The position numbers and the translations under genes are program-made. Positions 2,054 to 28,415 of a stretch of 34,317 nucleotides of DNA are shown piece after piece. Within the stretch, counting starts at the first letter, position 1. Each line of letters begins with the position of its first letter. Origin of the DNA: Lachnospiraceae bacterium (lineage in GTDB: Bacteria; Bacillota; Clostridia; Lachnospirales; Lachnospiraceae). The notes beneath the pieces are model-generated. The model did no database searches. It was given only the letters and a program-made list of their open reading frames with translations, and had not been told where the DNA came from. The stretch spans positions 1 through 34,317 of the forward strand of contig JAILBQ010000004.1 of assembly GCA_024680815.1 (NCBI GenBank), given 5' to 3'.

Positions 2054-2280
2054 AAAAAGTCAAACGGGCCTGCGACCATAGGTCGCAGGTTGTTTTGCGT
2101 AAAGAATTGTCGGGACAAATTTATTTGTCCACGCGATTCTTTACGCAAAATACAGGCAGCGCAGCTGCCAGTACCCGTTTGACCTTGGAAGGCAGAAAAA
2201 ACGAGTAAGAAGCGCGACAGCGCGGATTGCGAGTTTTACCAGCGTTGCGGGAGCAGCGCAGCTGCGCAGCAACGCGTTGC
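2054..2280 (+). repeat. Structured intergenic element, copy A (unnamed family)
   Basis: This fills most of the 266-base gap between the HlyD-like gene and yggS and has no coding potential. Block 1 is AAAAGTC (2055-2061) facing GACCTTGG (2181-2188), extended by AAACGGG (2062-2068) pairing with CCCGTTT (2174-2180). Inside are three hairpins: CCTGCGACC/GGTCGCAGG (2069-2077/2081-2089); a perfect 15-bp stem 2093-2107/2136-2150 with an inner stem GGACAAAT/ATTTGTCC (2113-2120/2123-2130); and GGCAGC/GCTGCC (2155-2160/2164-2169). Block 2 is GAGTAAGAAG (2203-2212), a GCGC hairpin, then GGATTGCGA (2224-2232). A GCGTTGC/GCAACGC stem (2242-2248/2269-2275) closes the element. Blocks 1 and 2 recur at 24262-24424 and block 1 at 28367-28415. 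Confidence 0.65.
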
Positions 2281-2314
2281 AAAATCACTATATATATCAC
2301 AGAAAGGGTTCCCC

Positions 2315-3007
2315 ATGATTAAGGAAAATCTTGAAACCGTCAGAAAAAACATAGCCGAAGCCTGTGAGCGCTCAGCCCGGAAGAGCGATGAGGTTACTCT
2401 TATCGCGGTAAGCAAAACCAAGCCTGTGGAACTGATAATGGAAGCTTATGAGGCCGGAGTCCGCGATTTCGGTGAAAACAAGGCCCAGGAGCTGGCGGCA
2501 AAATACGAGCAGCTGCCGAAGGATATCCGCTGGCATATGATAGGGCATCTGCAGCGCAACAAAGTCAAATACATTATAGATAAGACTGTGCTTATTCATT
2601 CCGTGGATTCCCTTGCTCTGGCGCAGGAGATAAGCAGACAGGCCGTGAAACATTCTCTTACGGCGAATATTCTGGTGGAAGTTAATATTGCGGATGAGGA
2701 GAGCAAGTTCGGAGTACCCGCCTCCGAAGCCGCCAAATTAGTTGACGAAATAATTAGTTTACAAAATATTTCCGTCCGCGGACTTATGTGTATCGCTCCG
2801 AATGTTACAGATTCTAAACAAAATAGAAAATTTTTCAAAAAATTATGTAAATTAGTTGTTGACATAAATAAAGTTTTGGTACATAATACACCTATGACAG
2901 TTTTGTCTATGGGGATGACGGGAGATTATCAGGTGGCCGTCGAGGAAGGTGCCACAATGGTAAGGGTCGGAACCGGAATATTCGGAGAGAGAGATTACAA
3001 TATTTAG
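2315..3007 (+). CDS. yggS: YggS-family pyridoxal-phosphate homeostasis protein
   Basis: At 230 residues this has the usual length of the YggS/PROSC family, a single-domain alanine-racemase-like TIM barrel that binds PLP without known catalysis and buffers free PLP in the cytoplasm. The PLP lysine is K34 in AVSKTKP. Other family marks are FGENKAQE, WHMIGHLQRNK, SMGMTGDYQVAVEEGATMVRVG and the terminal GTGIFGERDY. The start is the ATG at 2315, with AGAAAGGG at 2301-2308 upstream. In Firmicutes yggS commonly precedes sepF, as it does here (start 59 bases after the stop). Oddly, about 2740-2905 is much richer in A/T at third positions (TTA, AAA, AAT, ATA codons) than the rest of the gene, although the protein family features continue through it. 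Confidence 0.93.
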   Translation: MIKENLETVRKNIAEACERSARKSDEVTLIAVSKTKPVELIMEAYEAGVRDFGENKAQELAAKYEQLPKDIRWHMIGHLQRNKVKYIIDKTVLIHSVDSLALAQEISRQAVKHSLTANILVEVNIADEESKFGVPASEAAKLVDEIISLQNISVRGLMCIAPNVTDSKQNRKFFKKLCKLVVDINKVLVHNTPMTVLSMGMTGDYQVAVEEGATMVRVGTGIFGERDYNI

Positions 3008-3029
3008 CGCATACTTCTCCTGTATGCGC
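3007..3029 (+). other. Hairpin between yggS and sepF
   Basis: GCGCATAC (3007-3014) pairs perfectly with GTATGCGC (3022-3029) around a 7-base loop. It starts on the last base of the yggS stop codon. No T-run follows, so it is more likely an mRNA processing or stability element than a full terminator. Confidence 0.5.
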
Positions 3030-3065
3030 GGAGCGCTTTTAAGAGACGCGCAGGAGGATCTGAGG

Positions 3066-3584
3066 ATGGGATTTATTGACAAGCTTTTAAACTCTATGAA
3101 ACTCAATGACGATTATGATGATTATGATGACGATGAGTTTTATGATGACGATGACGAGGATACCGTAGAGTCCAGGAGAAAGTTCGGGCAGAAGGAAGAG
3201 CGCATCGAGGAAGAGGAAGCTCCGGCAAAATCCAAGATCATGTCCATGCGTCAGGTCAAGAAAAAGGCTCAGGGCGGAAATAATATGGAAGTCCGTATGA
3301 TGAAGCCCGTGTCCTTTGACGATTCAAGGAATGTGATGCGGGAGCTTTTAAGCGGCCGTACGGTTGTAATGAATCTGGAAGGCCTGAAGGTTGATGAGGC
3401 GCAGCGGATCTTTGACATAGTCTACGGCGCGGTGTTTGCTTTAAACGGCAGCATGCAGGATGTTTCACAATGTATCTACATTGCCGCACCGCATAATGTT
3501 TCACTGTCAGGCAATGAAAGAGAGAGCGAACCCGAGGAGCGCTACAGCGCCCCAAAAGCAAGAGCGGTGGGAAGCCGCTTCTAA
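3066..3584 (+). CDS. sepF: Cell division protein SepF
   Basis: SepF tethers FtsZ to the membrane and shapes the septum in Gram-positive bacteria. The start is set at the ATG at 3066, not an upstream in-frame start at 3024, because AGGAGG (3052-3057) sits 8 bases before it and the resulting N-terminus MGFIDKLLNSMKL is the expected amphipathic membrane-binding helix. An acidic linker rich in Asp/Tyr (about residues 15-35) and a Glu/Lys linker follow. The folded SepF domain runs from about residue 75 (VRMMKPVSFDDS), through TVVMNLEGLKVDEAQRIFDIVYGAVFALNG to the IYIAAPHNV strand. The length (172 residues) and domain order are normal. It lies directly after yggS, as in many Firmicutes division clusters. 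Confidence 0.93.
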   Translation: MGFIDKLLNSMKLNDDYDDYDDDEFYDDDDEDTVESRRKFGQKEERIEEEEAPAKSKIMSMRQVKKKAQGGNNMEVRMMKPVSFDDSRNVMRELLSGRTVVMNLEGLKVDEAQRIFDIVYGAVFALNGSMQDVSQCIYIAAPHNVSLSGNERESEPEERYSAPKARAVGSRF

Positions 3585-3642
3585 TCCGGTACCGAACTGT
3601 AAATGGCGGTATAGATTCCAGTATTCTTCATAAAATGCCGCG

Positions 3643-3694
3643 TTGATTTCGTATTTTTCATGTGTTAAGATTAGGCGATGCTCATGCATCGCCT
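3643..3694 (+). promoter_or_regulatory. Candidate promoter and 5' hairpin for aroB
   Basis: TTGATT (3643-3648) and TAAGAT (3666-3671) are 17 bases apart. Directly behind is a perfect hairpin, AGGCGATG (3673-3680) with CATCGCCT (3687-3694), followed by TCTCTGTTTT. The hairpin can be read as a weak terminator for sepF or as the 5' end of the aroB transcript. Confidence 0.4.
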
Positions 3695-3739
3695 TCTCTG
3701 TTTTCAGGGCTGATCCTTAAGAATATCCGGAGAGAACAG

Positions 3740-4831
3740 ATGTCTGAAAGGCTTCATATTAACAAAACCGAATCCGGAGATGCGTATGATATCGTTATTT
3801 CCGGAGATTATAATAAGCTGCCGGAGGAGATTTCCGCCCTTTCCACCTTTACCCGGCTCTGTATAGTTACCGACAGTAATGTTGGTCCTCTTTATGCCGG
3901 AAGGCTTCAGGAGATTCTGCGTCCCATCTGCGGGGAAATTTATATTTATACTTTTCCTGCAGGAGAGAAAAACAAGACACTCTCAGAAATAGAGGGCCTT
4001 TACTGCTTCCTTATGGAACATCGCTTTGACCGGAAGGATATTCTGATAGCTCTGGGAGGAGGTGTTGTCGGGGACATGACGGGGTTCGCGGCTGCCACGT
4101 ACTTAAGAGGCATACGCTTTGTACAGCTTCCGACAACCCTTCTTGCCGACACAGATTCTTCCATAGGGGGAAAAACCGGCGTAGACCTTCGTTCCTACAA
4201 AAATATGGTAGGGGCATTTTATATGCCGTCCCTTGTATACATTTCTCCCGGTGTTCTTTCCACTCTGCCTGATCGGGAGTTTTCCTCGGGAATGGCGGAG
4301 GTTGTAAAGCATGCCCTTATAAAAGACCGCCTTTATTTTGATTTTCTTTCCGGCAACAGGGATAAGATTACGGCTCTTAATCAAACCGTGCTGGAGGAAA
4401 TGATATTTAAAAGCTGCCGGATTAAGGCCCGGGTCGTGGAGGACGATCCGAAGGAGAGCGGAGAACGGGCGGTTTTAAATTTCGGACATACCCTGGGGCA
4501 TGCCGTTGAAAATTATATGAATTTCAGCCTGACCCACGGCGAGTGCGTTTCCCTGGGGATGGCTGCCGCCCTTGATATTTCCCGAAGCAGGAACTATATT
4601 TCCGAAGACGAGGTAAATGCCGCAAAAGACCTTCTTGCTGCTTTTTCTCTTCCGGTAAAGCTCGGCAGGAATACTGACACCGGAAAAATCCTGGAATTAA
4701 GCAAATCGGATAAAAAGATGGCCCGTAATAAACTCCGCTTCATTCTGTTGAAGGAAATCGGTCTGGCCGTGATAAAAACCGATGTCACGGATTCGGAGAT
4801 AGAGGATTCACTTAAAGGTATTCTTGAGTAA
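3740..4831 (+). CDS. aroB: 3-dehydroquinate synthase
   Basis: AroB converts DAHP to 3-dehydroquinate, step 2 of the shikimate pathway, using NAD and a divalent metal. The start chosen is the ATG at 3740 (363 residues), with GGAGAG at 3729-3734 in front, rather than an in-frame ATG at 3662 whose added N-terminus is encoded across the hairpin at 3673-3694. Family motifs in order are the NAD-binding GGGVVGDMTGFAAATYLRG, LPTTLLADTDSSIGGKTGVD, KNMVGAFYMPS, SSGMAEVVKHALI and LNFGHTLGHAVEN, which supply metal-binding Glu and His residues. It overlaps the upstream in-frame region of lspA and likely forms an operon with lspA and rluD. Confidence 0.95.
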   Translation: MSERLHINKTESGDAYDIVISGDYNKLPEEISALSTFTRLCIVTDSNVGPLYAGRLQEILRPICGEIYIYTFPAGEKNKTLSEIEGLYCFLMEHRFDRKDILIALGGGVVGDMTGFAAATYLRGIRFVQLPTTLLADTDSSIGGKTGVDLRSYKNMVGAFYMPSLVYISPGVLSTLPDREFSSGMAEVVKHALIKDRLYFDFLSGNRDKITALNQTVLEEMIFKSCRIKARVVEDDPKESGERAVLNFGHTLGHAVENYMNFSLTHGECVSLGMAAALDISRSRNYISEDEVNAAKDLLAAFSLPVKLGRNTDTGKILELSKSDKKMARNKLRFILLKEIGLAVIKTDVTDSEIEDSLKGILE

Positions 4832-4841
4832 GAGGTTAGTG

Positions 4842-5411
4842 ATGATTTCCAAAAAAAGAACCGTAGTATTTCTTATTATCGATATCTGTCTTATGTCCCT
4901 CCTCGTATGGCTGGATCAGTTTACAAAGACTGTTGTGAAAGCCTCTCTTCAGGGAAACGAGCCCTTAAGCCTGATAGGGGACTTCGTAACCTTCCGTTAT
5001 CTTGAAAATACCGGAGCGGCCTTTTCGATTCTTCAGAACCGGAGAATTTTTTTTCTGATTGTGGGAACGCTGTTCGTCGTGGTGATCATCTTTTTTCTTG
5101 TGCTTATCCCTCCCACGAAGAAATACCTTCCGCTGCGGGGGGGCCTGTGCTTCCTGGGTGCCGGAGCTGTGGGAAATATGATTGACCGCTTTTTTCTGCA
5201 TTATGTTGTGGATTTTATAAGCGTCGGAACCTTCCCGGTCTTTAATGTGGCGGATATTTATGTGACGGTTTCGACTGCCTTTCTGATAATTCTCGTGCTT
5301 TTTGTCTATAAGGATGATGATCTGGACTTTAAAAAGGCCCGCCATCCGAAACTCCATTCTTCAATGCTTCCCCCGGAGGAAAACCCGGACTCCGGGTCTG
5401 AAAAGTCATGA
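4842..5411 (+). CDS. lspA: Lipoprotein signal peptidase (signal peptidase II)
   Basis: LspA cleaves prolipoprotein signal peptides ahead of the lipid-modified cysteine in the cytoplasmic membrane. Four membrane segments can be drawn, with the conserved WLDQFTK, NTGAAFSIL, GNMIDRF and FNVADIYV motifs. The catalytic aspartates are D115 (NMIDR) and D138 (NVAD), counted from the ATG at 4842. That start has AAGAGG 7 bases upstream; an earlier in-frame TTG at 4824 and a GTG at 4839 are possible but less likely. The gene follows the aroB stop by 10 bases. The C-terminal tail after about residue 157 is unusually long and charged (about 30 residues), beyond the last membrane helix. Confidence 0.95.
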   Translation: MISKKRTVVFLIIDICLMSLLVWLDQFTKTVVKASLQGNEPLSLIGDFVTFRYLENTGAAFSILQNRRIFFLIVGTLFVVVIIFFLVLIPPTKKYLPLRGGLCFLGAGAVGNMIDRFFLHYVVDFISVGTFPVFNVADIYVTVSTAFLIILVLFVYKDDDLDFKKARHPKLHSSMLPPEENPDSGSEKS

Positions 5412-6331
5412 CCGGAGAATACTCTTTCTCTGTTCCGGAGGAATCGGACGGACTGCGGCTTGACGTATATCTTTCCGAAGAGCTGTCCGAAATTTCCCGT
5501 TCCTATATCTCAAAGGTGATCCGCTCCGGCGGCGTTTTTTTGCGGGACAGGGCCGGAAAGGCCTCTGACAGGGTGCGTTCCGGCGATTCCGTGCGCTTAA
5601 GCCTGCCCGAAAACTCTGTTCCGGAGGTCGAAGCCGAAAATATTCCTCTGGATATTCTCTATGAGGACGAGGATGTTATCGTCGTAAACAAGCCGAAGGG
5701 TATGGTGGTGCACCCGGCTCCCGGGCACTACACGGGGACTCTTGTCAACGCCCTTCTCTGGCATTGTCATGATTTAAGCGGCATAGGCGGAGTTTCCCGC
5801 CCCGGTATCGTTCACCGGATAGACCGGGATACCACCGGATCCCTTCTGGTCTGCAAAAATGATTATTCCCACCGGAAAATATCGGAGGCTCTGAGGGAAC
5901 ATTCCCTTACCCGGCTGTATGAAACAGTGGTTTACGGGGGCTTTTCCGAGGAGGAAGGGGTTATAGATGCCCCGATCGGAAGGCATATACGGGACCGAAA
6001 GCGTTTCGCGGTGTCAGCCGACGGCCGGAGGGCAGTTACCCGCTACAGGGTTATAGAGCACATGGGAAATTATACCCGTCTGGAATGCCGCCTGGAAACC
6101 GGCCGCACTCATCAGATACGTGTTCACATGGCTCATATAGGACACCCTGTAGTAGGAGATGAGTTGTATTCAAAAGCGTCTTTTCCTGTGCGTACCGACG
6201 GGCAGGTGCTCCATGCCAGAACCCTTGGATTCTGCCAGCCCCATACCGGGGAATATATAGAAATCGAAGCTCCGCTTCCGGAATATTTCCGAAAAGTTGT
6301 GGAGTACATTCTGAGCAGACACAAAATATAG
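5408..6331 (+). CDS. rluD: RluA/RluD-family 23S rRNA pseudouridine synthase
   Basis: This 307-residue enzyme has an N-terminal S4 RNA-binding domain (about residues 14-75, RLDVYLSEEL...RSYISKVIRSGGV) and a pseudouridine synthase domain. The catalytic motif HRIDRDTTG places the nucleophilic Asp at residue 139. Other family marks are VVNKPKGMVVHPAPGH, RLYETVVYG, TRYRVIEHMG, TGRTHQIRVHMAHIGHPVVGDELY. Homologues modify large-subunit rRNA uridines; the exact site cannot be read from sequence. The ATG overlaps the lspA stop by 4 bases (ATGA), indicating translational coupling, and lspA-rluD is a common pairing in Firmicutes. No classic terminator follows, only an A-run then AT-rich DNA. Confidence 0.92.
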   Translation: MTGEYSFSVPEESDGLRLDVYLSEELSEISRSYISKVIRSGGVFLRDRAGKASDRVRSGDSVRLSLPENSVPEVEAENIPLDILYEDEDVIVVNKPKGMVVHPAPGHYTGTLVNALLWHCHDLSGIGGVSRPGIVHRIDRDTTGSLLVCKNDYSHRKISEALREHSLTRLYETVVYGGFSEEEGVIDAPIGRHIRDRKRFAVSADGRRAVTRYRVIEHMGNYTRLECRLETGRTHQIRVHMAHIGHPVVGDELYSKASFPVRTDGQVLHARTLGFCQPHTGEYIEIEAPLPEYFRKVVEYILSRHKI

Positions 6332-6403
6332 TAAAAAAAAATTTTCATACACTTTATGTCACCTCTTTATTTTTTCTCCTTTGTAAAATACGACACATAA
6401 TTT

Positions 6404-6474
6404 TCACGTTAAATTTTTATGCAAACGTGATAGAAAATATGTTCGATTGTATCTGCGGAAATATAGATTATAAT
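6404..6474 (+). promoter_or_regulatory. Promoter with upstream inverted repeat for the Ala-rich gene
   Basis: A perfect -10 TATAAT lies at 6469-6474 with TTGTAT at 6447-6452, a 16-base spacer. Just upstream, TCACGTT (6404-6410) and AACGTGA (6424-6430) form an inverted repeat with a 13-base spacer, a possible operator. The surrounding 140 bases are strongly AT-rich. The transcript start would be near 6481, giving a leader of about 40 nt. Confidence 0.55.
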
Positions 6475-6521
6475 TGAGTTACACTTTATTTTCCAATAAG
6501 AGTAATAGGAGGTGTGGAGAA

Positions 6522-8153
6522 GTGAAAAAGTTTTATTCGGCCCTGATGGTCGCTGCGATCAGCGTATTATTTGGGGTACAGGCTTTTGCGGCGACCCCGG
6601 AGCAGGTTGCTGCAGCTCAGGCAGAGGCGATTCTGGAAGGGACTATTGATAATGCCGCCAATCAGACCAATGCCATGAAGAAGGTTGCTGCCGATGCCAT
6701 CGGAACAGCTACGAAGAATGCCATCGATGCCCGTTATGCTTCCAATATTCAGAACGGGAATGCCAAGGTGGCGGAAATGAATGCGGCTGCTCAGGCCGAT
6801 GCTGCAGTTCGTGCGGCGAAGGAAGCTGCTGAGCGTAAAGCTGCCGCTGATGCCGCGGCTATTGCCGGTGCGCAGAAGCTTGCAAACATTCAGAAAATGA
6901 ATGCTATCGAAACCGAGCAGGCTGCCAAGATTGCAGCTGCGAAAGAACAGCTTGCCAAAGCCCAGGAAGCAAAGGTTGCCATTGCAAATGACAATTGTGC
7001 AAAGATTCAGGCTGAGGCCGACGCAGTCAAGGCTGAGTATGAGGCGAAGAGGGCAGCTACTGATGTAGTGATTCAGCAGGCCTACGACGCCAAGATCGCT
7101 TCGATCAACGGCAATCTGGCCATTATCCAGAATCAGCTGCAGGAGAATGCTGCTGCTCAGATCAAGGCCACCAATGCCACTGCTGCTGCAAATATCGCGG
7201 CTATCGAGGCCAAGTATCAAAATGAGATCGCCGGATACGCTGTTCATAACCTCAATTATCAGGAGGGTGTGACTGTACAGATCGCGGCTGTCGGTATCAA
7301 CAATCCTAACGTATTAAAAGAAGCAAATTACAAGATTGCCTGTGAGCGCCAGACGAAGAATATGAATGACGCGATTATTGACGCTGCCACTCATATCGGA
7401 AGAGCAGAAATCTATGCTGCAAGGTCTGCGGCCCTCACTCCCGCTGCGGCTGCCGCTGTTGCAGAGTGCAAGGCAACGCTTGATAAAGGCGCCGTAGTTA
7501 TTAAGGCTGCCAAGGATAATACAAAGAAGACAAAGGAAATGGCTGACAGCACCGTGAATGCTTTCAAAGCATCCGCCGAAGCCATGGTTCCCGCTTACAT
7601 CAGCACCACCGCTGCCGCGGCCGGAGCTAAGGAAGCTGTTACAACTGCAAACGTTGAGGCAGGTATTGCCCGGTTCAATGCCGAGTGTGCGAAGTATGTG
7701 CTTGGCCGTACCGTGATTCGTGCCGCCGCTACCGAGCTTGCTCAGGCTACCACAAACCAGTATCTGGCCGGAGAGCTTGGCAAGATCGTTGACCAGGCGC
7801 AGAAGAATGCTGCCGCTCAGGCCGGAGTAGCTGCCGCTGCCAAGGATCTGGCTGCTGCCCAGAAGAATCTGGCAAATGTAATGAGTGCTCAGGCTAAGGC
7901 TGCAGAGAATGCACGTGATGCCACGGTTGCAGGAACAAAAGCTGCTCTTATAGCTCAGGATGCTGCCGCAACAAAGCTTATCGTAAATGTTTCCGATGCT
8001 ACGAGCGTTGCACAGTTCGCAGCGGCCATGTCCATTGCCGATCCGTTCTGTGCTCAGTACATCGTTGCGTCCACACCTGGACATATTCAGTGGATGCGTG
8101 ATCTTTCGGTTGCGAAGTATCACGTAAAGACTACTCCCGCGAAGCTGTTCTAA
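6522..8153 (+). CDS. Secreted alanine-rich, predicted helical/coiled-coil protein
   Basis: The start is the GTG at 6522, because an AGGAGG site (6508-6513) lies 8 bases before it and the protein then opens with a textbook Sec signal peptide: MKKFYS, a hydrophobic core, and an AFA cleavage site before ATPEQVAAA. The mature part (about 520 residues) is dominated by Ala with Lys, Glu, Gln and Asn in repeating amphipathic patterns (for example AAAQADAAVRAAKEAAER, KIAAAKEQLAKAQEAK), so it should be almost all helix and possibly coiled coil. Only the last 50 residues or so look folded differently (FCAQYIVASTPGHIQW, KYHVKTTPAKLF). There is no lipobox, LPXTG, SLH or LysM anchor. It is monocistronic, with a strong promoter, strong ribosome binding site and strong terminator, which suggests high expression. 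I do not recognise the family; a surface filament or spacer is only a guess. Confidence 0.75.
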   Translation: MKKFYSALMVAAISVLFGVQAFAATPEQVAAAQAEAILEGTIDNAANQTNAMKKVAADAIGTATKNAIDARYASNIQNGNAKVAEMNAAAQADAAVRAAKEAAERKAAADAAAIAGAQKLANIQKMNAIETEQAAKIAAAKEQLAKAQEAKVAIANDNCAKIQAEADAVKAEYEAKRAATDVVIQQAYDAKIASINGNLAIIQNQLQENAAAQIKATNATAAANIAAIEAKYQNEIAGYAVHNLNYQEGVTVQIAAVGINNPNVLKEANYKIACERQTKNMNDAIIDAATHIGRAEIYAARSAALTPAAAAAVAECKATLDKGAVVIKAAKDNTKKTKEMADSTVNAFKASAEAMVPAYISTTAAAAGAKEAVTTANVEAGIARFNAECAKYVLGRTVIRAAATELAQATTNQYLAGELGKIVDQAQKNAAAQAGVAAAAKDLAAAQKNLANVMSAQAKAAENARDATVAGTKAALIAQDAAATKLIVNVSDATSVAQFAAAMSIADPFCAQYIVASTPGHIQWMRDLSVAKYHVKTTPAKLF

Positions 8154-8191
8154 GCTAAGAAGCTTTCGGAGTATGCATTGACGCATTTCAT

Positions 8192-8229
8192 GCCGCCAGA
8201 GTTGGAAATCTTCCGCTCTGGCGGCTTTT
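8192..8229 (+). terminator. Strong intrinsic terminator after the Ala-rich gene
   Basis: GCCGCCAGAG (8192-8201) pairs perfectly with CTCTGGCGGC (8216-8225), followed by TTTTC. The loop carries a further GGAA/TTCC pair. Confidence 0.9.
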
Positions 8230-8426
8230 CTGTAAAAAACGAGGCAGAAACCGGCGAAATAAACAAATGTTCGGATTGCACTTATGAGAAGATAACGACA
8301 GATATTTTAATCGTTCAACAACCGGGGCTTTGTTCCGGAAAAGTTCGCAGAAATAACACTTTTTTGAATAAATAACACACGAACCGCATACAATAGCAAA
8401 TGTTATGAAAAGGAGCCGTGAGAGCT

Positions 8427-9841: not shown

Positions 9842-9878
9842 AGGAATGCTCCTTTCTCTTTTTTATTATAACATTTTT

Positions 9879-14798: not shown

Positions 14799-15125
14799 AT
14801 GGAAGACAACAAAATGCAGGAAGAATTTTTTGACGAGACATTTGAGGTGAGTACGGAGGAATATAAACTTAATGACAACGAGCTCGAAGACGTAAGCGGC
14901 GGAGGGATGAGTGATGATAATTTTTATTGTTACTACTGTAAAGAAAAACATGCCTTATTAAGGCAGTATCCCTTCAGGATCAGGCCCGCAGCCGCAGGTA
15001 GGAAGAATGATTGTTATGTAATGGCGACCAAGTATAAATGCGACAAAAACGGAGTATTCTTCACAGTTCCTCTGAAAAAAGGCGGAACCGCCTATTTTAA
15101 CGAGTTAATGCAGAGAATGGAGTGA
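14799..15125 (+). CDS. Double-glycine-leader small protein (bacteriocin/RiPP-like precursor candidate)
   Basis: The start is the ATG at 14799 with GAGAGG 6 bases upstream; an in-frame upstream start at 14655 would add 48 unconvincing residues. The 108-residue product has an acidic N-terminus and the stretch LNDNELEDVSGG (residues 24-35), an exact fit to the double-glycine leader pattern L(S)xxELxxVxGG that C39-peptidase ABC exporters cleave. The predicted released part is 73 residues with C44, C47, C72 and C81, in a CYYC ... C-x8-C arrangement like a small zinc ribbon or two disulfides. No exporter, modification enzyme or immunity gene is next to it. It lies between the carboxypeptidase and a tyrosine recombinase. 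I do not recognise the core. The leader call is strong as a pattern; the bacteriocin role is inference. Confidence 0.72.
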   Translation: MEDNKMQEEFFDETFEVSTEEYKLNDNELEDVSGGGMSDDNFYCYYCKEKHALLRQYPFRIRPAAAGRKNDCYVMATKYKCDKNGVFFTVPLKKGGTAYFNELMQRME

Positions 15126-15205: not shown

Positions 15206-15241
15206 TTGTATTAATTTACTAATTGTGTTATAGTCTGATTA
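15206..15241 (+). promoter_or_regulatory. Promoter giving a leaderless recombinase mRNA
   Basis: TTGTAT (15206-15211) and TATAGT (15229-15234) are 17 bases apart. The expected start point, 6-7 bases after the -10, falls on the A of the ATG at 15241. No Shine-Dalgarno sequence is present between the -10 and the start codon. Confidence 0.6.
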
Positions 15242-16299
15242 TGTCGGACTATAAGAAGGAAACCAACAATAAAACAAGGCTCAAGGCCAACCGGATGATC
15301 GCCGAGCTTCCGCCCTTTGTTGAGGACTATTTTCTGGAGCGGGAGATTCGTTTAAGCGCCATGTCCATATATTCCTATGCCAATGAGCTTTCGGTCTTCT
15401 TTAAATTTCTCCATGACTCAAACTCATATTTTGCCACAAAAAGCATAAAAAACATTACCCTTGAGGATCTGGACGCCTTAAACGACAGGGATATAGTGGA
15501 GTTCATGCACTACCTGAGGAACTATCCGACCGAACTCGCAGACGGAAGGGTGCGGATCACGGAATGCTCGCCCACAACCATCCAGCATTATATGGTGGCT
15601 CTCAATACCTTCTGGAAATATCTTTATGTCCGGAAAATGGTTTCCTCCAATCCGGTGGAGTTAATCATAAGGGCAAAGCTTCCCAGAAAAGAGGTAATAT
15701 ATCTGGACCGGGATGAGAAGAACATTTTTCTGGATGCGGTGGAAAGCGGGGAGGGGCTGTCAAAGAAGCAGCTTGCAAGCCACTCCAAAAATGCGGAACG
15801 GGATACGGCCATCGTACAGGTTTTTCTGGCCACCGGAATCCGTGTTTCGGAACTGGTGGGCATGGATATCCGCGATATAAATTTCCGCCGTCATTCCATA
15901 AATGTGTACCGCAAAGGGGGCAATTTCGATACCGTATATTTCAGCGACACCGCGGAGGGGTATCTCAAGGCCTATCTTGATGTACGCGAGAAAAAATACC
16001 GGCCCGCAAAGACAGAGGAAGCCGTGTTTTTAAACCGGGACGGAAAGCGGATAAGCGTGCGCTCGGTCCAGCTGATGGTGAAAAAATACATTTCCGTCTC
16101 CGTGCCCGGTCAGGCCGGGCGCATAACCCCGCATAAGCTCAGAAGCACCTATGCCGAAACCATGCTTAAGGCCACCGGCGGAGACCTGGAACGGGTGCAG
16201 AAGCTGATGGGCCATTCCTCCATTACCTCCACCACACATTATGTGGCCAGTACCGAGGAGGAGAAGGAAGCTGTCAGGAATCTTTCGGAGGTAAATTAG
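15241..16299 (+). CDS. Tyrosine recombinase, XerC/XerD type
   Basis: The 352-residue protein has an N-terminal SAM-like core-binding domain (about residues 20-130, LSAMSIYSYANELSVFFKFL) and a C-terminal catalytic domain. Catalytic residues are all present: Arg in TGIRVSELVGMD, Lys in YRKGGNFDT, His-x-x-Arg in PHKLRSTYAE, His in GHSSI and the nucleophile Tyr in THYVAST. It is somewhat longer than typical XerC/D but has no phage neighbours, excisionase or visible attachment site, so a housekeeping chromosome-dimer resolution role or a related Xer function is favoured. The ATG at 15241 is chosen because of the promoter geometry; an in-frame start at 15223 lies inside the promoter. The AI-2E-family gene follows after 5 bases. 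Confidence 0.9.
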   Translation: MSDYKKETNNKTRLKANRMIAELPPFVEDYFLEREIRLSAMSIYSYANELSVFFKFLHDSNSYFATKSIKNITLEDLDALNDRDIVEFMHYLRNYPTELADGRVRITECSPTTIQHYMVALNTFWKYLYVRKMVSSNPVELIIRAKLPRKEVIYLDRDEKNIFLDAVESGEGLSKKQLASHSKNAERDTAIVQVFLATGIRVSELVGMDIRDINFRRHSINVYRKGGNFDTVYFSDTAEGYLKAYLDVREKKYRPAKTEEAVFLNRDGKRISVRSVQLMVKKYISVSVPGQAGRITPHKLRSTYAETMLKATGGDLERVQKLMGHSSITSTTHYVASTEEEKEAVRNLSEVN

Positions 16300-21769: not shown

Positions 21770-21774
21770 GCCCC

Positions 21775-21803: not shown

Positions 21804-21809
21804 TTGCGG

Positions 21810-21900: not shown

Positions 21901-21914
21901 AAAGGAGAAAGAGT

Positions 21915-22220
21915 ATGTACGCGATAATTGCTACCGGCGGAAAGCAGTATAAAGTTTCCGAGGGTGATGTCATTTCCGTGGAAAAGCTTGAGGGAGACAA
22001 GGAAAGCTCCGTTACCTTCGATACGGTTCTGGCTCTTGGCGGTGACAGCCTCTCTGTAGGCGATGATGTTAAAAGCGCCACCGTGACCGGGACGATTCTT
22101 GAACACGGCAGAAGAAAGAAAGTCACTGTCTACAAGTATAAGCCCAAGAGCGGATATCACAAAAAGAACGGTCACAGGCAGTCCTATACAAAGGTTAAGA
22201 TCGAAAAGATCAACGCGTAA
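21915..22220 (+). CDS. rplU: Ribosomal protein L21
   Basis: The 101-residue protein has the L21 features [25 protein letters not shown] at its N-terminus and the basic RNA-binding segment [31 protein letters not shown]. It binds 23S rRNA with L20. The start is the ATG at 21915 after AAAGGAG; longer in-frame extensions run back through the leader RNA and are rejected. The stop codon ends at the base where prp begins, so the two genes overlap by one base. Confidence 0.97.
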
Positions 22221-22609
22221 TGACCCGGATCACCATCCAGTATGATGAAAACGGTGTTCCACGTAAACTAAGGCTTTCGGGCCATACCGGCTATGCCTCT
22301 TCCGGTGAGGATGTGGTGTGTGCGGCGGTATCGGCTCTGACCATCAACACGGTGAATTCTCTGGAGTATTTTCTTCCGGAAGATAAGTTTAGGGACACCT
22401 CTGATGAGAAAAAGGGCTTCATCGAGTTTGAGTTTGTTTGTGACCCTTCGGAAAAGGCTCAGCTCCTTGTAAATTCGTTGATTTTCGGTCTTAAAAACAT
22501 TAAAGATCAGTATGGGAACACATATCTGAAAATTACGGAAAAACCCTTCGGGCATTCTCGCAGGCCGCCCGGAAAGCGGCAGAAAGGAAAAAACGATGCT
22601 GAAGTATAA
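22220..22609 (+). CDS. prp: Ribosomal-processing cysteine protease Prp
   Basis: Prp removes the N-terminal extension of ribosomal protein L27 in Firmicutes and related groups. The 129-residue protein carries the catalytic pair H22 (GHTGYA) and C34 ([11 protein letters not shown]) at the positions known from the Staphylococcus aureus enzyme. It sits in the standard place between rplU and rpmA. Its C-terminal tail (about residues 110-129) is basic and longer than in many homologues, and it overlaps the start of rpmA by 14 bases. The presence of a matching cleavage sequence in L27 here supports activity. Confidence 0.95.
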
Positions 22610-22889
22610 TCTTCAATTCTTCGCTCATAAAAAGGGAGTCGGTTCCACGAAGAACGGCCGGGACAGTGAATCAAAGCGTCTCGGTGCCAAAAGGGCCGAC
22701 GGGCAGTTTGTTTTAGCCGGCAACATCCTTTACCGTCAGCGCGGAACCCATATTCATCCCGGAAAAAATGTGGGCCGCGGCGGAGACGATACCCTGTTTG
22801 CAAAGGTCGACGGCGTTGTGCGCTATGAGCGCTATGACCGCTTCCGCACACAGGCAAGCGTTTATCCGGTAGAGCAGAAAGCGGAGTAA
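22596..22889 (+). CDS. rpmA: Ribosomal protein L27 (with Prp-cleaved extension)
   Basis: The 97-residue protein begins [21 protein letters not shown]. The MLKYNLQFF extension matches the Firmicutes motif that Prp cleaves after FF, exposing AHKKG, whose flexible tail reaches the peptidyl-transferase centre. The body has [42 protein letters not shown] and the [10 protein letters not shown] end. AGAAAGGA precedes the ATG at 22596. It is the last gene of the operon before a hairpin at 22915-22940. Confidence 0.97.
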
Positions 22890-24257
<1,368 letters not shown>

Positions 24258-24261
24258 TACA

Positions 24262-24424
24262 GGCGTCAAAGTCACATGTCGTTCGAGCTTGCTCGATAAG
24301 ATATGTGACCTTGGACGCCACCCCAATATGAGCAAGTAGCAAGATGCCCGTTTAGTGGGTATCGCAGCGGATTGCGAATATTGGGCAAAATCGCGGAAGT
24401 TGTGAAGCAACGAAGCGATTTTGA
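24262..24424 (+). repeat. Structured intergenic element, copy B
   Basis: This element fills most of the 263-base gap between obg and yhbY. Block 1 is GGCGTCAAAGTCACAT (24262-24277) paired with ATGTGACCTTGGACGCC (24303-24319) with a CGAGC/GCTCG tip hairpin. Block 2 is GAGCAAGTAGC (24330-24340), a hairpin GATGCCC/GGGTATC (24343-24349/24357-24363), then GGATTGCGA (24369-24377). CCAATAT near 24323 can pair with ATATTGG near 24378. A final stem AATCGC/GCGATT (24389-24394/24415-24420) encloses GTTG/CAAC. The order of blocks is the same as in copy A at 2054-2280. No open reading frame is supported. Confidence 0.65.
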
Positions 24425-24520
24425 GTATCAGAGACTTTTGTCGCTTAAATCATAGAATAAAATAAACGTTTATGGTAAAATCCTTTTGATTTGTTTTCGG
24501 TTTTTTTACGAGGTGCCGCC

Positions 24521-24853
24521 ATGGCTTTGACTCTTACTACAAAACAACGCGCATATCTTCGAAGTCTTGCCGTCAACGAAAGACCCGTGCTTTCCATCGG
24601 CAAGGAGGGAGTAACTCCCGAGGTGGTGCTGAGTGCCGAGGAAGCCCTTGCAAAGCGCGAGCTTATAAAGATTAATGTTCAGAAATCCTTTGAAGGCGAA
24701 ATAAAGGAAGCGGCCGAAACCGTTGCTTCACGCAGCCGCTCCGTTCTTGTGCAGATTATGGGAAGGAAGATCACTCTGTACCGGCCGGCCAAAAAGCCTG
24801 AAATTATTCTTCCCAAAAAGAAAGACAAAGTGGGAAAGCCGAAGGATGCCTGA
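24521..24853 (+). CDS. yhbY: CRM-domain (YhbY) RNA-binding protein
   Basis: The 110-residue protein is a single CRM (CRS1-YhbY) domain of the kind associated with pre-50S ribosomes. It begins MALTLTTKQRAYLRSLA and has the conserved VLSIGKEGVTPEVV loop, RELIKINVQ and the final GRKITLYRPAKK strand. The start is the ATG at 24521 with GAGG 7 bases upstream; an in-frame TTG at 24491 is rejected. The product ends in a basic tail. A -10-like TAAAAT lies at 24476-24481. Its stop overlaps the nadD start by 8 bases. Confidence 0.93.
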   Translation: MALTLTTKQRAYLRSLAVNERPVLSIGKEGVTPEVVLSAEEALAKRELIKINVQKSFEGEIKEAAETVASRSRSVLVQIMGRKITLYRPAKKPEIILPKKKDKVGKPKDA

Positions 24854-25487
24854 ACCTTCGGGAAAGGAGAGACGCCGGATCGGAATTCTGGGAGGAACCT
24901 TTGATCCGCTGCATTTCGGTCATCTTCTGTTGGGAGAAGCAGCCATGGAGGAAGCCGGACTTGAAAAAGTTGTCCTGATGCCCAGCGGCTGCTCCTATCT
25001 TAAGAAGGACAGGGAGATTTCCCCCGCTCCTGCCCGCCTTCAAATGGTGAAGCTTTGTGTTGAAGGCGATGGGCGCTTCGAGGTCTCCGATCTCGAAATA
25101 AGGCGGGGAGGCAACACCTATACGGCCGATACAATAGCCGAGTGGCATATGCTCTACCCCTCGGACGAAATATTTTTTATCACCGGGGCCGATACACTCC
25201 GTCTTATGGATGAATGGATCCGGCCGGAGGAGATTTTTTCCGGCTGCACCGTGCTTGTGGCGGTACGGGAGGGCACTGATGAGGCCGCTCTTAAGGAGGT
25301 AATCGCTTCCTATCGCAGGAGGTTTTTGGCCGAAATCCGGCTGATTTGCGCGCCCAGAATTGATATCAGCGCAAGCCTTATAAGAGAGCGGATCCGGGAA
25401 GGGAAAAGCATAAGATATTATGTGCCCGAGCCGGTACGGCGTTATATTGAAAAAAACAAATTATACAGGGACGGATATGACGGATAA
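24846..25487 (+). CDS. nadD: Nicotinate-nucleotide adenylyltransferase
   Basis: NadD adenylates nicotinate mononucleotide to deamido-NAD in NAD synthesis. The 213-residue protein has the nucleotidyltransferase signature GTFDPLHFGH (residues 17-26), a VLMPSGCSYLKKDREISPAPARLQMV segment, FFITGADTLRLMDEW and the C-terminal ISASLIRERIREGKSIRYYVP. The start is the ATG at 24846, overlapping yhbY; a GGAAAGGAG sequence just inside the gene has no suitable start codon after it. It overlaps yqeK by 11 bases. The pairing with yqeK is standard in Firmicutes. Confidence 0.95.
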   Translation: MPEPSGKERRRIGILGGTFDPLHFGHLLLGEAAMEEAGLEKVVLMPSGCSYLKKDREISPAPARLQMVKLCVEGDGRFEVSDLEIRRGGNTYTADTIAEWHMLYPSDEIFFITGADTLRLMDEWIRPEEIFSGCTVLVAVREGTDEAALKEVIASYRRRFLAEIRLICAPRIDISASLIRERIREGKSIRYYVPEPVRRYIEKNKLYRDGYDG

Positions 25488-26067
25488 TATTCGCCAGATC
25501 AGAAAAAGAGTCAAGGTGATGCTGGATAAGGAGCGCTATCAGCATACGTTGGGCGTGGCCTATACCGCTGCGGCTCTTGCGATGCGTTATCACGAGGATG
25601 TGGACCGTGCTTTTACGGCGGGGCTCCTTCATGACTGCGCGAAATGTATCGACAACGCGGAAAAGCTTCGCCTGTGCGCTAAATACGGTATTGAGGTAAG
25701 CGAAACGGAGAGAAAAGCTCTGTATCTTCTGCATTCGAAGCTTGGTGCGGCAATTGCCGAACGGGATTTTGATATTAAGGACCGGGGCATTCTGGACGCC
25801 ATACGGTATCATACGACCGGGCGTCCCGCCATGAGCCTTATAGAAGCCATAATCTTTACAGCGGATTATATCGAGCCGGGCCGGAGCGAGGCTCCGGATT
25901 TGGAGGAAATTAGAGCCCTTGCGTTCACGGATCTCACTGCCGGAATAAAGAAGATTTTAGGCGATACGTTAAAATATCTGGACGGCCGTGACAGACCTGT
26001 GGATCCCGCAACAAAAGAAACCTACGACTACTATACGGCTTCCGGCGGACGCGTACCCGGATGTTAA
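25477..26067 (+). CDS. yqeK: YqeK-family HD-domain diadenosine tetraphosphatase
   Basis: YqeK proteins hydrolyse Ap4A symmetrically with an iron-containing HD site. The 196-residue protein shows metal ligands H23 (RYQHTLGVA), H52 and D53 (GLLHDCAKC), then IRYHTTGRPAMS and FTADYIEPGR in the expected order. The start is the ATG at 25477, inside the end of nadD, preceded by ACAGGG. It runs into rsfS: the stop lies before the rsfS ATG at 26082 by 14 bases. No LytR-CpsA-Psr gene stands between yqeK and rsfS, unlike in several relatives. Confidence 0.93.
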   Translation: MTDNIRQIRKRVKVMLDKERYQHTLGVAYTAAALAMRYHEDVDRAFTAGLLHDCAKCIDNAEKLRLCAKYGIEVSETERKALYLLHSKLGAAIAERDFDIKDRGILDAIRYHTTGRPAMSLIEAIIFTADYIEPGRSEAPDLEEIRALAFTDLTAGIKKILGDTLKYLDGRDRPVDPATKETYDYYTASGGRVPGC

Positions 26068-26081
26068 AGGAGAAAAAATAC

Positions 26082-26429
26082 ATGAATGATAAGGATGAAC
26101 AGGAAAACCTCAGACTGATTTCAGATGCCCTTTCCGAGAAAAAGGGAGAAGATATCCGCATACTTGATATCAGTGCTCTGTCCGTAATTGCGGATTATTT
26201 CCTTATAGCGAGCGGTTCAAATCCCACACAGATTCAGGCAATGGCCGATAACGTGGAGGAAAAGCTCAAAGATAAAGGAAAACGGCCCCTGAGTATTGAA
26301 GGTTACGCAGGAGCCGCCTGGATATTAATGGATTACGGAAATTATGTGATTCACATTTTCGACCGGGAAAACCGGGAGTTTTATGACCTGGAACGTATCT
26401 GGAAGGACGCCAGGCCCGTCACACTCTGA
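26082..26429 (+). CDS. rsfS: Ribosomal silencing factor RsfS
   Basis: RsfS binds L14 on the 50S subunit and blocks joining of the subunits when nutrients are short. The 115-residue protein has the family landmarks ISALSVIADYFLIASGSN, TQIQAMADNVEEKLK, EGYAGAAWILMDYGNYVIHIF and REFYDLERIWKDA. The start is the ATG at 26082 with AAAGGAG 9 bases upstream rather than an in-frame ATG at 26061 that lies before that site. It is the last gene of the yhbY-nadD-yqeK run and converges with lexA after 29 bases, with no clear terminator. Confidence 0.95.
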   Translation: MNDKDEQENLRLISDALSEKKGEDIRILDISALSVIADYFLIASGSNPTQIQAMADNVEEKLKDKGKRPLSIEGYAGAAWILMDYGNYVIHIFDRENREFYDLERIWKDARPVTL

Positions 26430-26458
26430 ATACGGAATATAGAGCCTGTCTTCAGAAT

Positions 26459-27088
26459 TTACCGGCAATTGCGGAAGACTCCGAAGACCTTTCCGAGGAT
26501 TTCGCAGTTTGCCACAATTATCGGGGACATTGTATCGTTCTGGGGCTGGAGCCGCACGCGGCCGTTTTCCTTGTAGAAGGTCTTCACAGTGGCTCCGTCC
26601 TCCACCATGGCAACGACTGTGTCTCCGTTTTCCACATGCTTTGTGCTCTGTACAAAGACCAGATCGCCGTCCATTATTCCCACATTTATCATACTGTCAC
26701 CGCGGACGTGAAGCACAAAGGCTTCGCTGTTTTTCATTCCTCTCGGAAGCACGTCGACCGGAAGAGGGAAATATCCTTCTATATTCTGTTCCGCGAGAAT
26801 CGGTTCTCCTGCGGCAACCCTTCCCACAATAGGAATACTTGTCATTTCGGTGCGCAGCATTTCGAAGCCTTCGTCCACGATTTCAATGGCTCTGGGCTTT
26901 GTGGGATCCCGGCGGATATAGCCGTTTTTCTCGAGCGTTTCAAGATGGGCATGCACCGAAGAAGTTGATTTAAGCCTCACAGCCTCGCAGATCTCGCGCA
27001 CCGAAGGCGGAAAGCCCCGGTCAAGAATCTGCTCTTTTATATAATCCAGAATTTCCTGCTGCTTTTTTGTGATCTTTCCGTATGACAT
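26459..27088 (-). CDS. lexA: LexA repressor
   Basis: LexA represses SOS genes and cleaves itself when RecA filaments form. The 209-residue protein has an N-terminal winged helix (residues 1-68, SVREICEAVRLKSTSSVHAHLETLEKNGYI), the cleavage site A93-G94 in GRVAAGEPI, and the S24 serine-lysine dyad S132 (GDSMI) and K169 (ATVKTFYKE). It is divergent from the LysM gene and the shared region holds several SOS-like boxes, one of which overlaps its own promoter: -10 TATAAT on the minus strand at 27139-27144, with TTGCAT 17 bases upstream at 27162-27167. Autoregulation is therefore likely. Confidence 0.97.
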   Translation of the reverse strand: MSYGKITKKQQEILDYIKEQILDRGFPPSVREICEAVRLKSTSSVHAHLETLEKNGYIRRDPTKPRAIEIVDEGFEMLRTEMTSIPIVGRVAAGEPILAEQNIEGYFPLPVDVLPRGMKNSEAFVLHVRGDSMINVGIMDGDLVFVQSTKHVENGDTVVAMVEDGATVKTFYKENGRVRLQPQNDTMSPIIVANCEILGKVFGVFRNCR

Positions 27089-27165
27089 CCGTCCCTCCGC
27101 TGAACTGAATTTAAAATTAAAAAATTGCTACAAGCCTGATTATAACAGCACCCGGAGCAAAATGC

Positions 27166-27263
27166 AAACATATTTTCGGGAAAATTTGTTCGAGAGTATT
27201 GACAGCCGAAAATATGTTCGGTATAATGCAAGCATAAAGAACACCTGTTCGCAACAAATGTTC
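27166..27263. promoter_or_regulatory. Cluster of five SOS (LexA) box-like sites
   Basis: Matches to the Gram-positive pattern GAACnnnnGTTC are: 27166-27177 (minus strand GAAAATATGTTT, next to the lexA -35), 27180-27191 (GAAAATTTGTTC), 27208-27219 (GAAAATATGTTC), 27239-27250 (GAACACCTGTTC, a perfect match) and 27252-27263 (CAACAAATGTTC). They fill the intergenic region between lexA and the LysM gene. Confidence 0.85.
27199..27227 (+). promoter_or_regulatory. Consensus promoter of the LysM gene under LexA control
   Basis: TTGACA (27199-27204) and TATAAT (27222-27227), both perfect, are 17 bases apart. The SOS box at 27208-27219 lies inside the spacer and two more lie downstream, so LexA binding should block transcription. 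Confidence 0.85.
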
Positions 27264-27273
27264 GGAGGCTGTT

Positions 27274-27615
27274 ATGAAAATTCGGAAAATTCGACGTATA
27301 AAACGCAGACTCAAAAGGAATTTTATAAAGCTTTTCTGTGCGGGACTTCTGATAATCTGTTTCGCTACAGCCTTCGGTCGAGTTTCCTCCTATGCCCGCA
27401 CAGGCAATACGGAAACAAGTAAATATTTTACAAGCTATGAGATAGTTTCGGGAGATACCCTGGAATCCATAGCGGACAGGTTCTGCACGGAGGAGTTCGG
27501 AAGCAGGAGAGCTTTTCTTAAAGAAGTCCGCTCCATCAACGCTCTTTCGGATTTTGACCATATCCGCGCCGGGAGCTATCTCATAATTCCCTATTATTCT
27601 GCTGAAGAGAAATAA
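27274..27615 (+). CDS. LysM-domain protein, YneA-like SOS cell-division inhibitor candidate
   Basis: The 113-residue protein has a very basic N-terminus (KIRKIRRIKRRLKRNF), one membrane helix or signal anchor (about residues 19-35) and a single LysM domain (YEIVSGDTLESIADRFC...SINALSDFDHIRAGSYLIIPYY). This is the architecture of YneA, which halts division during the SOS response in Bacillus, and of related small inhibitors. It lies head-to-head with lexA under a promoter covered by SOS boxes, the classic yneA arrangement. Sequence identity to YneA cannot be tested here, so the gene name is left open. GGAGG lies 6-7 bases before the ATG and is shared with the last SOS box flank. Confidence 0.85.
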   Translation: MKIRKIRRIKRRLKRNFIKLFCAGLLIICFATAFGRVSSYARTGNTETSKYFTSYEIVSGDTLESIADRFCTEEFGSRRAFLKEVRSINALSDFDHIRAGSYLIIPYYSAEEK

Positions 27616-27702
27616 CCGTTACAGCTCTGCGATATTCTGCTGAGAGCTTTTCGATCATAGTATCTGCAGGAATTTCAGTTTGAATAAGCCATCACCCCAT
27701 CT
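27616..27702. other. Intergenic region with no recognised feature
   Basis: Part of the 303-base gap between the LysM gene and the Rrf2 gene. I see no open frame or clear promoter in these bases; the remainder of the gap holds the hairpins, palindrome and promoter listed separately. Confidence 0.5.
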
Positions 27703-27751
27703 GAGGTTGACATAAATATATTATGTCAACCTCTCTCTCCCTCTTTTTTTT
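27703..27751 (+). terminator. Perfect 13-bp hairpin followed by a T-run
   Basis: GAGGTTGACATAA (27703-27715) pairs perfectly with TTATGTCAACCTC (27721-27733). A pyrimidine stretch ends in eight T (27744-27751). The 10-base gap before the T-run is longer than usual, so termination efficiency is uncertain. Confidence 0.6.
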
Positions 27752-27789
27752 AATGTCTGTTTGAATTCGTTTCCCTGTAAAACACGAGA

Positions 27790-27883
27790 CGTGAAATAAG
27801 GATTTTCACGGATAAGACTCCCTGAAAAAGACGCCGAATAAGGATTAAAATTTATTTTAATCCCGGATAATAAATGGTAGAAT
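27790..27883 (+). promoter_or_regulatory. Promoter and palindromic operator of the Rrf2 gene
   Basis: A perfect palindrome, GGATTAAAAT (27842-27851), TT, ATTTTAATCC (27854-27863), overlaps the probable -35 (27855-27860), with TAGAAT at 27878-27883 as the -10. A smaller inverted repeat CGTGAAA/TTTCACG (27790-27796/27804-27810) lies upstream, and AATAAGGATT occurs twice (near 27796 and 27837). This layout suits autorepression by the Rrf2 protein. Confidence 0.65.
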
Positions 27884-27918
27884 TAAAAAAATGTTTTTTC
27901 ACAGGGGAATTTATAAAT

Positions 27919-28356
27919 ATGAAAGTATCGACAAGAGTGGAATACGGGCTTGTAGCCATTACCGATATAGTGCTTCACAGCGAAAAGGGTAAAAGTGTTT
28001 CCGCGCCGGAGATTGCAGAGCGGCAGCATATATCCCATAAGTATCTTGAGCAGATTCTGCTGCTGCTGAGGCAGGCCGGTTTCATCAAGGCCCAGAAGGG
28101 ACTGCGGGGCGGCTATGCCTTATGCTGTCCGGCAAGCGAGATCCGTTTGTCCGATGTCCTTAACGCACTGGACGGAAGCATTCTTTCGGGAATGGAAGAG
28201 GATGACGCCGGGGATCTGCGCTCGGTAATAAACAAATGCTTCTGGAACAGGATTAACTCAAACCTGAAAGAATATGCCGAAAACATGAAGCTAAGTGAGT
28301 TTGCCGCCCAATGCCAGAACAACCTCCCGGAAAGCTGGGATTTGTACATGATATGA
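27919..28356 (+). CDS. Rrf2-family transcriptional regulator
   Basis: The 145-residue protein begins MKVSTRVEYGLVAITDIVLH and has the Rrf2 winged helix: SAPEIAERQHISHKYLEQILLLLRQAGFIKAQKG and the wing LRGGYALC. Unlike IscR and NsrR it lacks the three-cysteine Fe-S cluster loop; only isolated Cys residues occur (the CC in ALCCP, one in NKCFW and one in AQCQ), so a CymR-like or other ligand-sensing mode is more likely. The start is the ATG at 27919; an in-frame ATG at 27874 lies at the -10 and is rejected. The ribosome binding site (AGGGG) is weak and 11 bases away. A perfect palindrome over the promoter suggests autoregulation. No obvious target operon is adjacent. Confidence 0.9.
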   Translation: MKVSTRVEYGLVAITDIVLHSEKGKSVSAPEIAERQHISHKYLEQILLLLRQAGFIKAQKGLRGGYALCCPASEIRLSDVLNALDGSILSGMEEDDAGDLRSVINKCFWNRINSNLKEYAENMKLSEFAAQCQNNLPESWDLYMI

Positions 28357-28366
28357 TGCCAGGGTC

Positions 28367-28415
28367 TCAAAGTCTCAACCGATCGTGCCTGCACGAAAAC
28401 GGTTGAGACCTTGGA
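28367..28415 (+). repeat. Structured intergenic element, copy C (short)
   Basis: TCAAAGTCTCAACCG (28367-28381) pairs with CGGTTGAGACCTTGGA (28400-28415) around a TCGTG/CACGA tip hairpin. The CAAAGTC/GACCTTGG block and its A-C mismatch are the same as in copies A and B; the rest of the stem differs. Block 2 is absent. Confidence 0.6.

Follow-up and report, generated by a model that had tools for sequence, protein, structure and literature searches.

How should one interpret intergenic sites whose hairpin stems differ in sequence from copy to copy while remaining paired: as parts of an RNA gene, as a DNA structure, or as members of a mobile repeat family? This question is raised by a stretch of 34,317 nucleotides of Lachnospiraceae bacterium (GenBank assembly GCA_024680815.1, contig JAILBQ010000004.1, positions 1 to 34,317 of the forward strand), hereafter the window, in which an earlier note, made from the sequence alone, had pointed to three plus-strand sites, here called copies A, B, and C. 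The answer that we reach is that all three very probably belong to a family of miniature inverted-repeat transposable elements (MITEs) of Lachnospiraceae having Rfam RF01699 as its core, namely mobile DNA elements with a structure maintained by selection. Each site does contain (A/C)AAAGTC followed by GACCTTGG, with pairing stems in between, and copies A and B also possess the second module, formed by GAGyAAG, a hairpin, GGATTGCGA, and a distal stem, as the note had described. The limits that it gave (2054-2280, 24262-24424, and 28367-28415) fall on real sites, but the boundaries had to be corrected to those in table 1.

The core sequence already has a name. In an Rfam scan, copies A and B match RF01699, "Clostridiales-1 RNA," with 58.9 and 110 bits, respectively, against a cut-off of 48, while copy C has no match to this model up to an E value of 10. 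The suggestion that no named family fits must therefore be withdrawn: The family is in the 2010 table of PMC2864571, where the row for Clostridiales-1, a candidate RNA, reads y, n, n, and Rfam types it as 'Gene; sRNA' (small RNA); we found no function for it in the literature searched. Nor is the AAAGTC/GACCTTGG pair constant, as had been thought, because most other copies in the genome deviate at these positions, and its A-C mismatch is not kept across the family. GACCTTGG occurs 33 times in the genome versus 72 times for its reversed word and hence is not enriched, and AAAGTC followed by GACCTTGG within 4-34 bases is found in the genome only at B and C, the gap of copy A exceeding this pattern. 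Being variable among copies, with GACCTTGG not enriched, the word pair was rejected as a signature of the family.

The evidence for mobility lies at the ends of the elements. Many copies extend beyond the Rfam match by a short 3' tail, which supplies the missing half of an imperfect inverted repeat of 17 bp (GATGCCAGGGTCAAAAG / GATGTTGGGGTCAAAAG), and the consensus over the 80 copies with such a tail is GATGCCAGGG... at the 5' end and GATGTTGGGG... at the 3' end, that is, two different ends. In genome G001, 14 of 20 fetched copies of 157 nt are identical although they lie at unrelated places, 12 of the 20 have in common a further 34-nt tail ending in the inverted 5' end, and the 17-base end pattern is found 201 times when up to one mismatch is allowed, versus no occurrence of the reversed pattern. 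Tailed full copies measure 182-222 bp, and two-ended forms of 36, 46, 90, 112, 143, 190, 344/345, and 399 bp are present in G001 and G004. Target-site duplications were sought at 78 tailed sites, their expected number being obtained by comparing the flank of a copy with the flanks of other copies: Exact duplications surround 57 of the 78, with 45 at 7 bp and 12 at 8 bp (1.34 and 0.06 expected), besides one at 5 bp, two at 6 bp, and none at 9-12 bp. A first set of 44 tailed copies had given 24 at 7 bp and 7 at 8 bp (0.72 and 0.05 expected), and two-ended forms of all sizes have duplications in 48 of 95 cases (40 at 7 bp and 8 at 8 bp). The duplicated sequence has the consensus ATNNNAT. Deleted forms that have lost the core have duplications as well. 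Such counts are not fully independent, since several copies come from one genome.

Empty sites in relatives complement this evidence. When the joined flanks of nine G001 copies were compared with five relatives, seven had a match crossing the junction with at least 40 nt on both sides; for L117 and L125 no junction-crossing match was found in the five relatives searched. Base-level alignment of four of the seven sites is uninterrupted for L131 in G030, L130 in G004, and L126 in G004 (the latter with one difference within the duplication), and for L118 in G047 it stops at the junction and is not clean. Judging by two-piece matches, G023 has an element at the L131 site and G047 one at the L126 site. 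The interval between obgE and the yhbY-like gene, in which copy B lies, was fetched for 30 loci, 12 of which were unreadable by the motif used; the element is absent from 16 of the 18 readable loci, some of them from near-identical relatives, and the two carriers, the genome of the window and G013, have different subtypes, with the G013 insertion (L163, G013:C94) lying directly behind the obgE stop codon. A mobile repeat family, which the earlier note had entertained as an alternative, is what these 7-8 bp duplications and empty sites point to.

This evidence needs to be set against that of copies without a tail, which argues in the opposite direction. Among 55 untailed copies, one has an exact duplication at 7 bp (0.02 expected) and one at 6 bp (0.06 expected), and in the genome of the window only 2 of 18 testable copies, L001 and L005 (the latter being copy B), have one, with 0.18 expected. 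It follows that a large share of the Rfam members, among them most copies in the genome of the window, are old or differently built.

Table 1. Copies of the element in the window and the parts of copy B (positions count from the first nucleotide of the window)
Feature	Position	Strand	Basis
Copy A, diverged, three extra hairpins in first arm; limits approximate (from stop codon at 2046)	2046..2290	+	RF01699 58.9 bits at 2141-2284; fold z -10.7
Copy B, complete element, 196 bp, obgE / yhbY-like gene interval	24256..24451	+	RF01699 110 bits at 24255-24430; tail; flanking duplications
Copy B, left target-site duplication ATAGAAT	24249..24255	.	exact 7-bp repeat
Copy B, right target-site duplication ATAGAAT	24452..24458	.	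exact 7-bp repeat
Copy B, first arm (P2), with AAAGTC/GACCTTGG words	24262..24319	+	predicted fold
Copy B, second arm (P3: GAGCAAGTAGC ... GCGGATTGCGAA)	24322..24385	+	predicted fold
Copy B, third arm (P4)	24386..24423	+	predicted fold
Copy B, 3' tail beyond Rfam match (end 24430), completes terminal inverted repeat	24430..24451	+	sequence and predicted fold
obgE stop TGA, made of the duplication's last T and the element's first GA	24255..24257	+	ORF 22965-24257; joined empty site gives EYIE then TAA
Copy C, short derivative: inverted repeat (GATGCCAGGG) and first hairpin only; right end approximate	28355..28438	+	sequence; fold z -4.3

Further copies of the family, the lack of which in the genome or its relatives had been named beforehand as speaking against a selected structure, are abundant. 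The genome of the window has 23 matches to RF01699 at E 10, and 19 of these exceed the cut-off; a match that exceeds it is present in 41 of 48 genomes of the same genus and, among 200 genomes sampled from the family, in 87 (with at most 13 candidates scored per genome), and two genomes of the same genus have at least 46 matches each. Class-wide, a match at E 1e-5 was found in 8 of 291 genomes, which the order of the table divides into 7 of 10 of the same family (that of the window included), 1 of 3 others of the same order, and 0 of 278 others. Outside these genomes, the G001 element was seen in one plasmid record, five partial matches in the phage set, and the end pattern in seven stretches of viral contigs. 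Derivatives of 69 bp, made up like copy C, exist in a relative (L190 and L191).

Why would a MITE maintain such a fold? Copies A, B, and C are all more stable than any of 200 dinucleotide shuffles, copy B with z values of -10.6 under RNA and -8.9 under DNA parameters. From an alignment of 58 copies, RNAalifold predicted 29 pairs, of which 27 have changed on both sides; paired cells amount to 93.7% versus 70.5% after shuffling and at most 45.1% in slid controls, and the covariation score is 0.609 versus 0.188 in shuffles, all values being favoured by the fact that the structure was predicted from the same alignment on which it is scored. One measure does not stand out: There are 67 further pair types versus 62.6 in shuffles, and 40 of 500 shuffles reach 67. 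The notion that stems which vary yet pair reflect a selected structure is borne out by these figures, and the absence of significant covariation, also named beforehand as speaking against it, was not what we found.

The position of the copies with respect to genes offers a further clue. When copy B is excised in silico, obgE ends in EYIE followed by TAA, and with the element in place its stop is TGA. The stop falls exactly on T+GA in 12 of 79 copies lying behind a sense gene, and in the four such copies that have a duplication, namely B and the tailed L101, L105, and L249 (empty sites TAA, TAA, and TAG), the empty site has a stop in every case. The element starts with GA and inserts after T, so that a stop codon entered directly after its T is restored. 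More generally, sense tandem arrangements outnumber antisense ones by 60 to 31 (p 0.003), and a gene stop lies within -10 to +6 of the element end in 36 of 79 sense but 6 of 50 antisense cases (p 9e-5); these counts cover 164 unique sites (167 copies) minus 15 at contig edges and 2 without open reading frames (ORFs), genes being script ORFs of at least 100 amino acids, not annotated genes, with real stop codons used. The untailed copies follow this pattern (29 sense versus 13 antisense, p 0.02; stop within the same range in 25 of 37 versus 2 of 21, p 2e-5). Tailed copies considered alone weigh against it, having 31 versus 18 in orientation (p 0.085, not significant) and a nearby stop in 11 of 42 sense versus 4 of 29 antisense cases (p 0.25). 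That the old, lasting copies are mostly sense and right behind a gene suits an RNA that is tolerated or useful. We slightly prefer, with a confidence that stays a little short of even, the interpretation that sense copies behind stop codons form a folded module of the 3' untranslated region (UTR), tolerated or used by the mRNAs and lasting for this reason.

A stronger version, to which we give a serious but somewhat smaller chance on comparative sequence evidence, is that RF01699 is mainly a functional RNA, either a small RNA or a 3' UTR regulator, its spread by transposition being secondary. This would accord with the strong covariation, with the sense bias at stop codons that is strongest among untailed copies, and with its place among the candidate RNAs listed in 2010 (PMC2864571); moreover, in each of the 72 copies compared, the modelled strand has a better fold than its complement. 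However, the latter result is obtained with DNA parameters as well as with RNA parameters, sites are gained or lost between relatives, young identical copies are scattered, and deleted forms without the core still have duplications. Only 2.2% of the pairs in 129 elements are G-U (1.5% on the other strand), against 7.9% in 19 tRNAs folded likewise, a small and imperfect control.

The scarcity of G-U pairs would also be expected under another, more tentative interpretation, which we consider possible from modelled folds: The structure may act as single-stranded DNA, with hairpins of one strand being recognised or used in transposition, in its control, or in replication. The P2 loop has the form gCNNGc in 113 of the 125 hairpins found and the P4 loop is cGNAg in 84 of 130 distinct copies, both resembling motifs that are known to stabilise DNA: The title of a 2002 article by Nakano on stable DNA tetraloops, cited in PMC5090098, names d(gCNNGc) and d(cGNNAg), and d(GCGAAGC) has been termed an extraordinarily stable hairpin (PMC6582339). 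Yet the P3 loops are mixed, cGNAg in 27 and cGNNAg in 12 of 128, as judged by a rough loop caller. The gCUUGc loop, besides, is stable also as RNA. In the RNAalifold table, G-U cells exceed A-C cells (31 versus 12), as RNA would predict too, and the sense orientation behind stop codons favours RNA. Of 43 matches in three genomes, 29 have the modelled strand on the G-rich strand (p 0.03), which would fit the DNA interpretation, but the bias in gene orientation alone would give the same result, so the two are not independent.

Which enzyme could move these elements? Among 431 loci (2.12 Mb), 30 spans of 0.7-3 kb between inverted ends were found, and only one of them, L291, contains a transposase; the scan viewed the longest ORF of each span, and the L291 protein, P0001, was the only one searched against family libraries. 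L291 is a contig of Candidatus Blautia merdavium (a metagenome-assembled genome, MAG) with an insertion sequence (IS) of 1842 bp, running from GAT to ATC and having one main gene of 546 amino acids. P0001 matches the Pfam domains DUF772 (PF05598), DDE_Tnp_1_6 (PF13751), and DDE_Tnp_1 (PF01609), all over cut-off, and the NCBIfam IS1182 model NF033551 with 127.5 bits (E 6.9e-37). The start-side end of this IS agrees with the pattern TGATGYYAGGGTCAAAAG without mismatch and the stop-side end is TGATATTGGGGTCAAAAC, with three mismatches; two end matches at this tolerance have an expectation of 0.01, and they are the counterparts of the two different MITE ends. In addition, the stop-side end recurs, followed by ATAATAT, in a faecal contig whose transposase is 84.8% identical, and in a second faecal contig, with 54% identity over 60 N-terminal residues, the start-side end is preceded by ATGTCAT; both flanks fit ATNNNAT, and the position of each end relative to the gene agrees in all three records. 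Relatives of P0001 were not found in viral contigs, and in plasmids they were limited to distant transposases and a 63-residue Roseburia fragment, the surroundings of which (L432) have no MITE-type ends.

These shared ends make it probable that a divergent DUF772/DDE transposase of the IS1182-like type, belonging to an IS with the same two different ends, mobilises the MITE family in trans. Several facts weigh against it. The score of P0001 is below the curated cut-off of 270, so that the protein is called IS1182-like only; L291 was fetched for its one end, so that independent evidence is confined to the second end and the gene; an intact IS came up a single time, in a MAG contig starting exactly at its left end, leaving only the right flank readable, and this flank, AAGTGAT, does not fit ATNNNAT; the two faecal records are partial and unverified. 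The solitary intact IS, its low score, and its deviant flank would also be in line with another transposase moving the family, the shared ends then being due to chance or convergence. We consider this rather improbable, given that both ends of L291 match, that the ends are on the corresponding gene side in three records, and that two flanks agree with the target consensus. Other long spans between inverted ends were rejected by eye as autonomous elements for their host-type genes: L164 (thiolase, HPF), L180 (MATE), L184 (amidohydrolase-like), L185 (polygalacturonase-like), L212, L215, and L221. In L185 (G240:C64) and L184 (G085:C1), such genes lie between two MITE ends that have no duplication in common, possibly reflecting two separate insertions or a composite unit.

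In mechanistic terms, comparison shows that the copies spread as a MITE: They are bounded by terminal inverted repeats of about 17 bp and generate 7-8 bp duplications of ATNNNAT, their sites are empty in relatives, fresh duplications surround internally deleted copies, and the branched core stays paired while its stems change. An IS1182-like transposase acting in trans on the two ends would probably move them. Insertions after the T of a stop restore it, as happened to obgE at copy B (TAA to TGA). A bolder synthesis would hold that what was published as an RNA family is really a mobile element under selection to form, in one strand as single-stranded DNA, a three-arm junction, with loops of the kind seen in highly stable DNA hairpins (gCNNGc and cGNAg) on two arms, moved by the IS1182-like transposase and having first bases suited to rebuilding stops so that copies settle unharmed; taken as a whole, we regard this as unlikely. 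That the sites are just chance hairpins of intergenic DNA, as might be thought from the lack of enrichment of the 8-base word alone, is hardly conceivable and refuted by the RF01699 matches in the genome, the target duplications, the covariation, and the folds beating their shuffles.

Some additional features deserve description. In copy A, the tip of the first arm is swapped at 2069-2173 for three hairpins, one having a long, near-perfect stem (TTTTGCGTAAAGAAT ... ATTCTTTACGCAAAA). Loci L003, L004, and L006-L012 of the same genome form a subfamily with the closing stem TGAAAGT/ACTTTCA or near variants, without recognisable tail or duplications, which is perhaps older or otherwise mobilised. 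A second high-copy intergenic repeat (GTTACTGTTCACTCGCTTTCAGCTCG...) is present at L165, L166, L171, and L172, with many matches in G004, G030, G047, and G023, and is contained as well in the 344/345- and 399-bp forms, where it follows the third arm and precedes the closing stem's 3' strand. Elsewhere in the window, a short protein encoded at 14799-15125 (MEDNKMQEEFF...NELEDVSGGGMSDD...) shows, by eye, a leader of double-glycine type as in ribosomal peptide precursors and adjoins a gene (15223-16299) resembling tyrosine recombinases.

If correct, this analysis accounts for an Rfam family listed since 2010, and it carries the warning that covariation and many copies may mark a transposable element instead of an RNA gene. 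Annotators and users of RNA-seq will meet copies in Lachnospiraceae of gut and rumen, where they lie behind obgE and further genes, and the question becomes testable whether the folds of bacterial MITEs are kept for RNA in host mRNAs or for DNA in transposition.

How does the family compare with known systems? Elements of the REP/IS200-IS605 type are not known to have terminal inverted repeats or target duplication. Both are present here, and membership in that group was rejected; the family consists instead of short elements with terminal inverted repeats and target duplications, too short to hold their own transposase, and an IS with matching ends accompanies them (both ends in L291, one each in the partial faecal records L433 and L434). 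With RF01699 as published, A and B share a score over the gathering cut-off and the three-arm fold, but the Rfam model misses copy C, and mobility, tail, inverted repeats, target duplications, and mobiliser are absent from the table passage of PMC2864571. No link of Clostridiales-1 or RF01699 to a MITE or transposase emerged from the searched literature at the level of titles and abstract openings, and a term search of the 2024 review of prokaryotic MITEs (PMC10969869) returned no occurrence of Clostridi-, Lachnospir-, Rfam, or IS1182; as far as these searches show, the sequence family is known and its mobility has not been described. IS1272/TnSha1 belongs to the IS1182 family, the same as that of our transposase by its best, below cut-off NCBIfam profile, but is described as using blunt hairpin cutting without target duplication (PMC4923244), whereas ATNNNAT is duplicated around RF01699 elements. 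NEMIS/Correia and ERIC are small mobile repeats of other bacteria, compared here by description, for which RNA folds acting on neighbouring mRNAs have been proposed, the effect of ERIC being orientation-dependent (PMC2229807). Another likeness is to RUP of Streptococcus pneumoniae, a short intergenic MITE with ends like those of IS630-Spn1; according to the passage of PMC2229807 that describes it, RUP targets TA and has no other signature of structure or function, whereas the RF01699 family has 7-8 bp duplications, a probable IS1182-like partner, and a covarying three-arm core.

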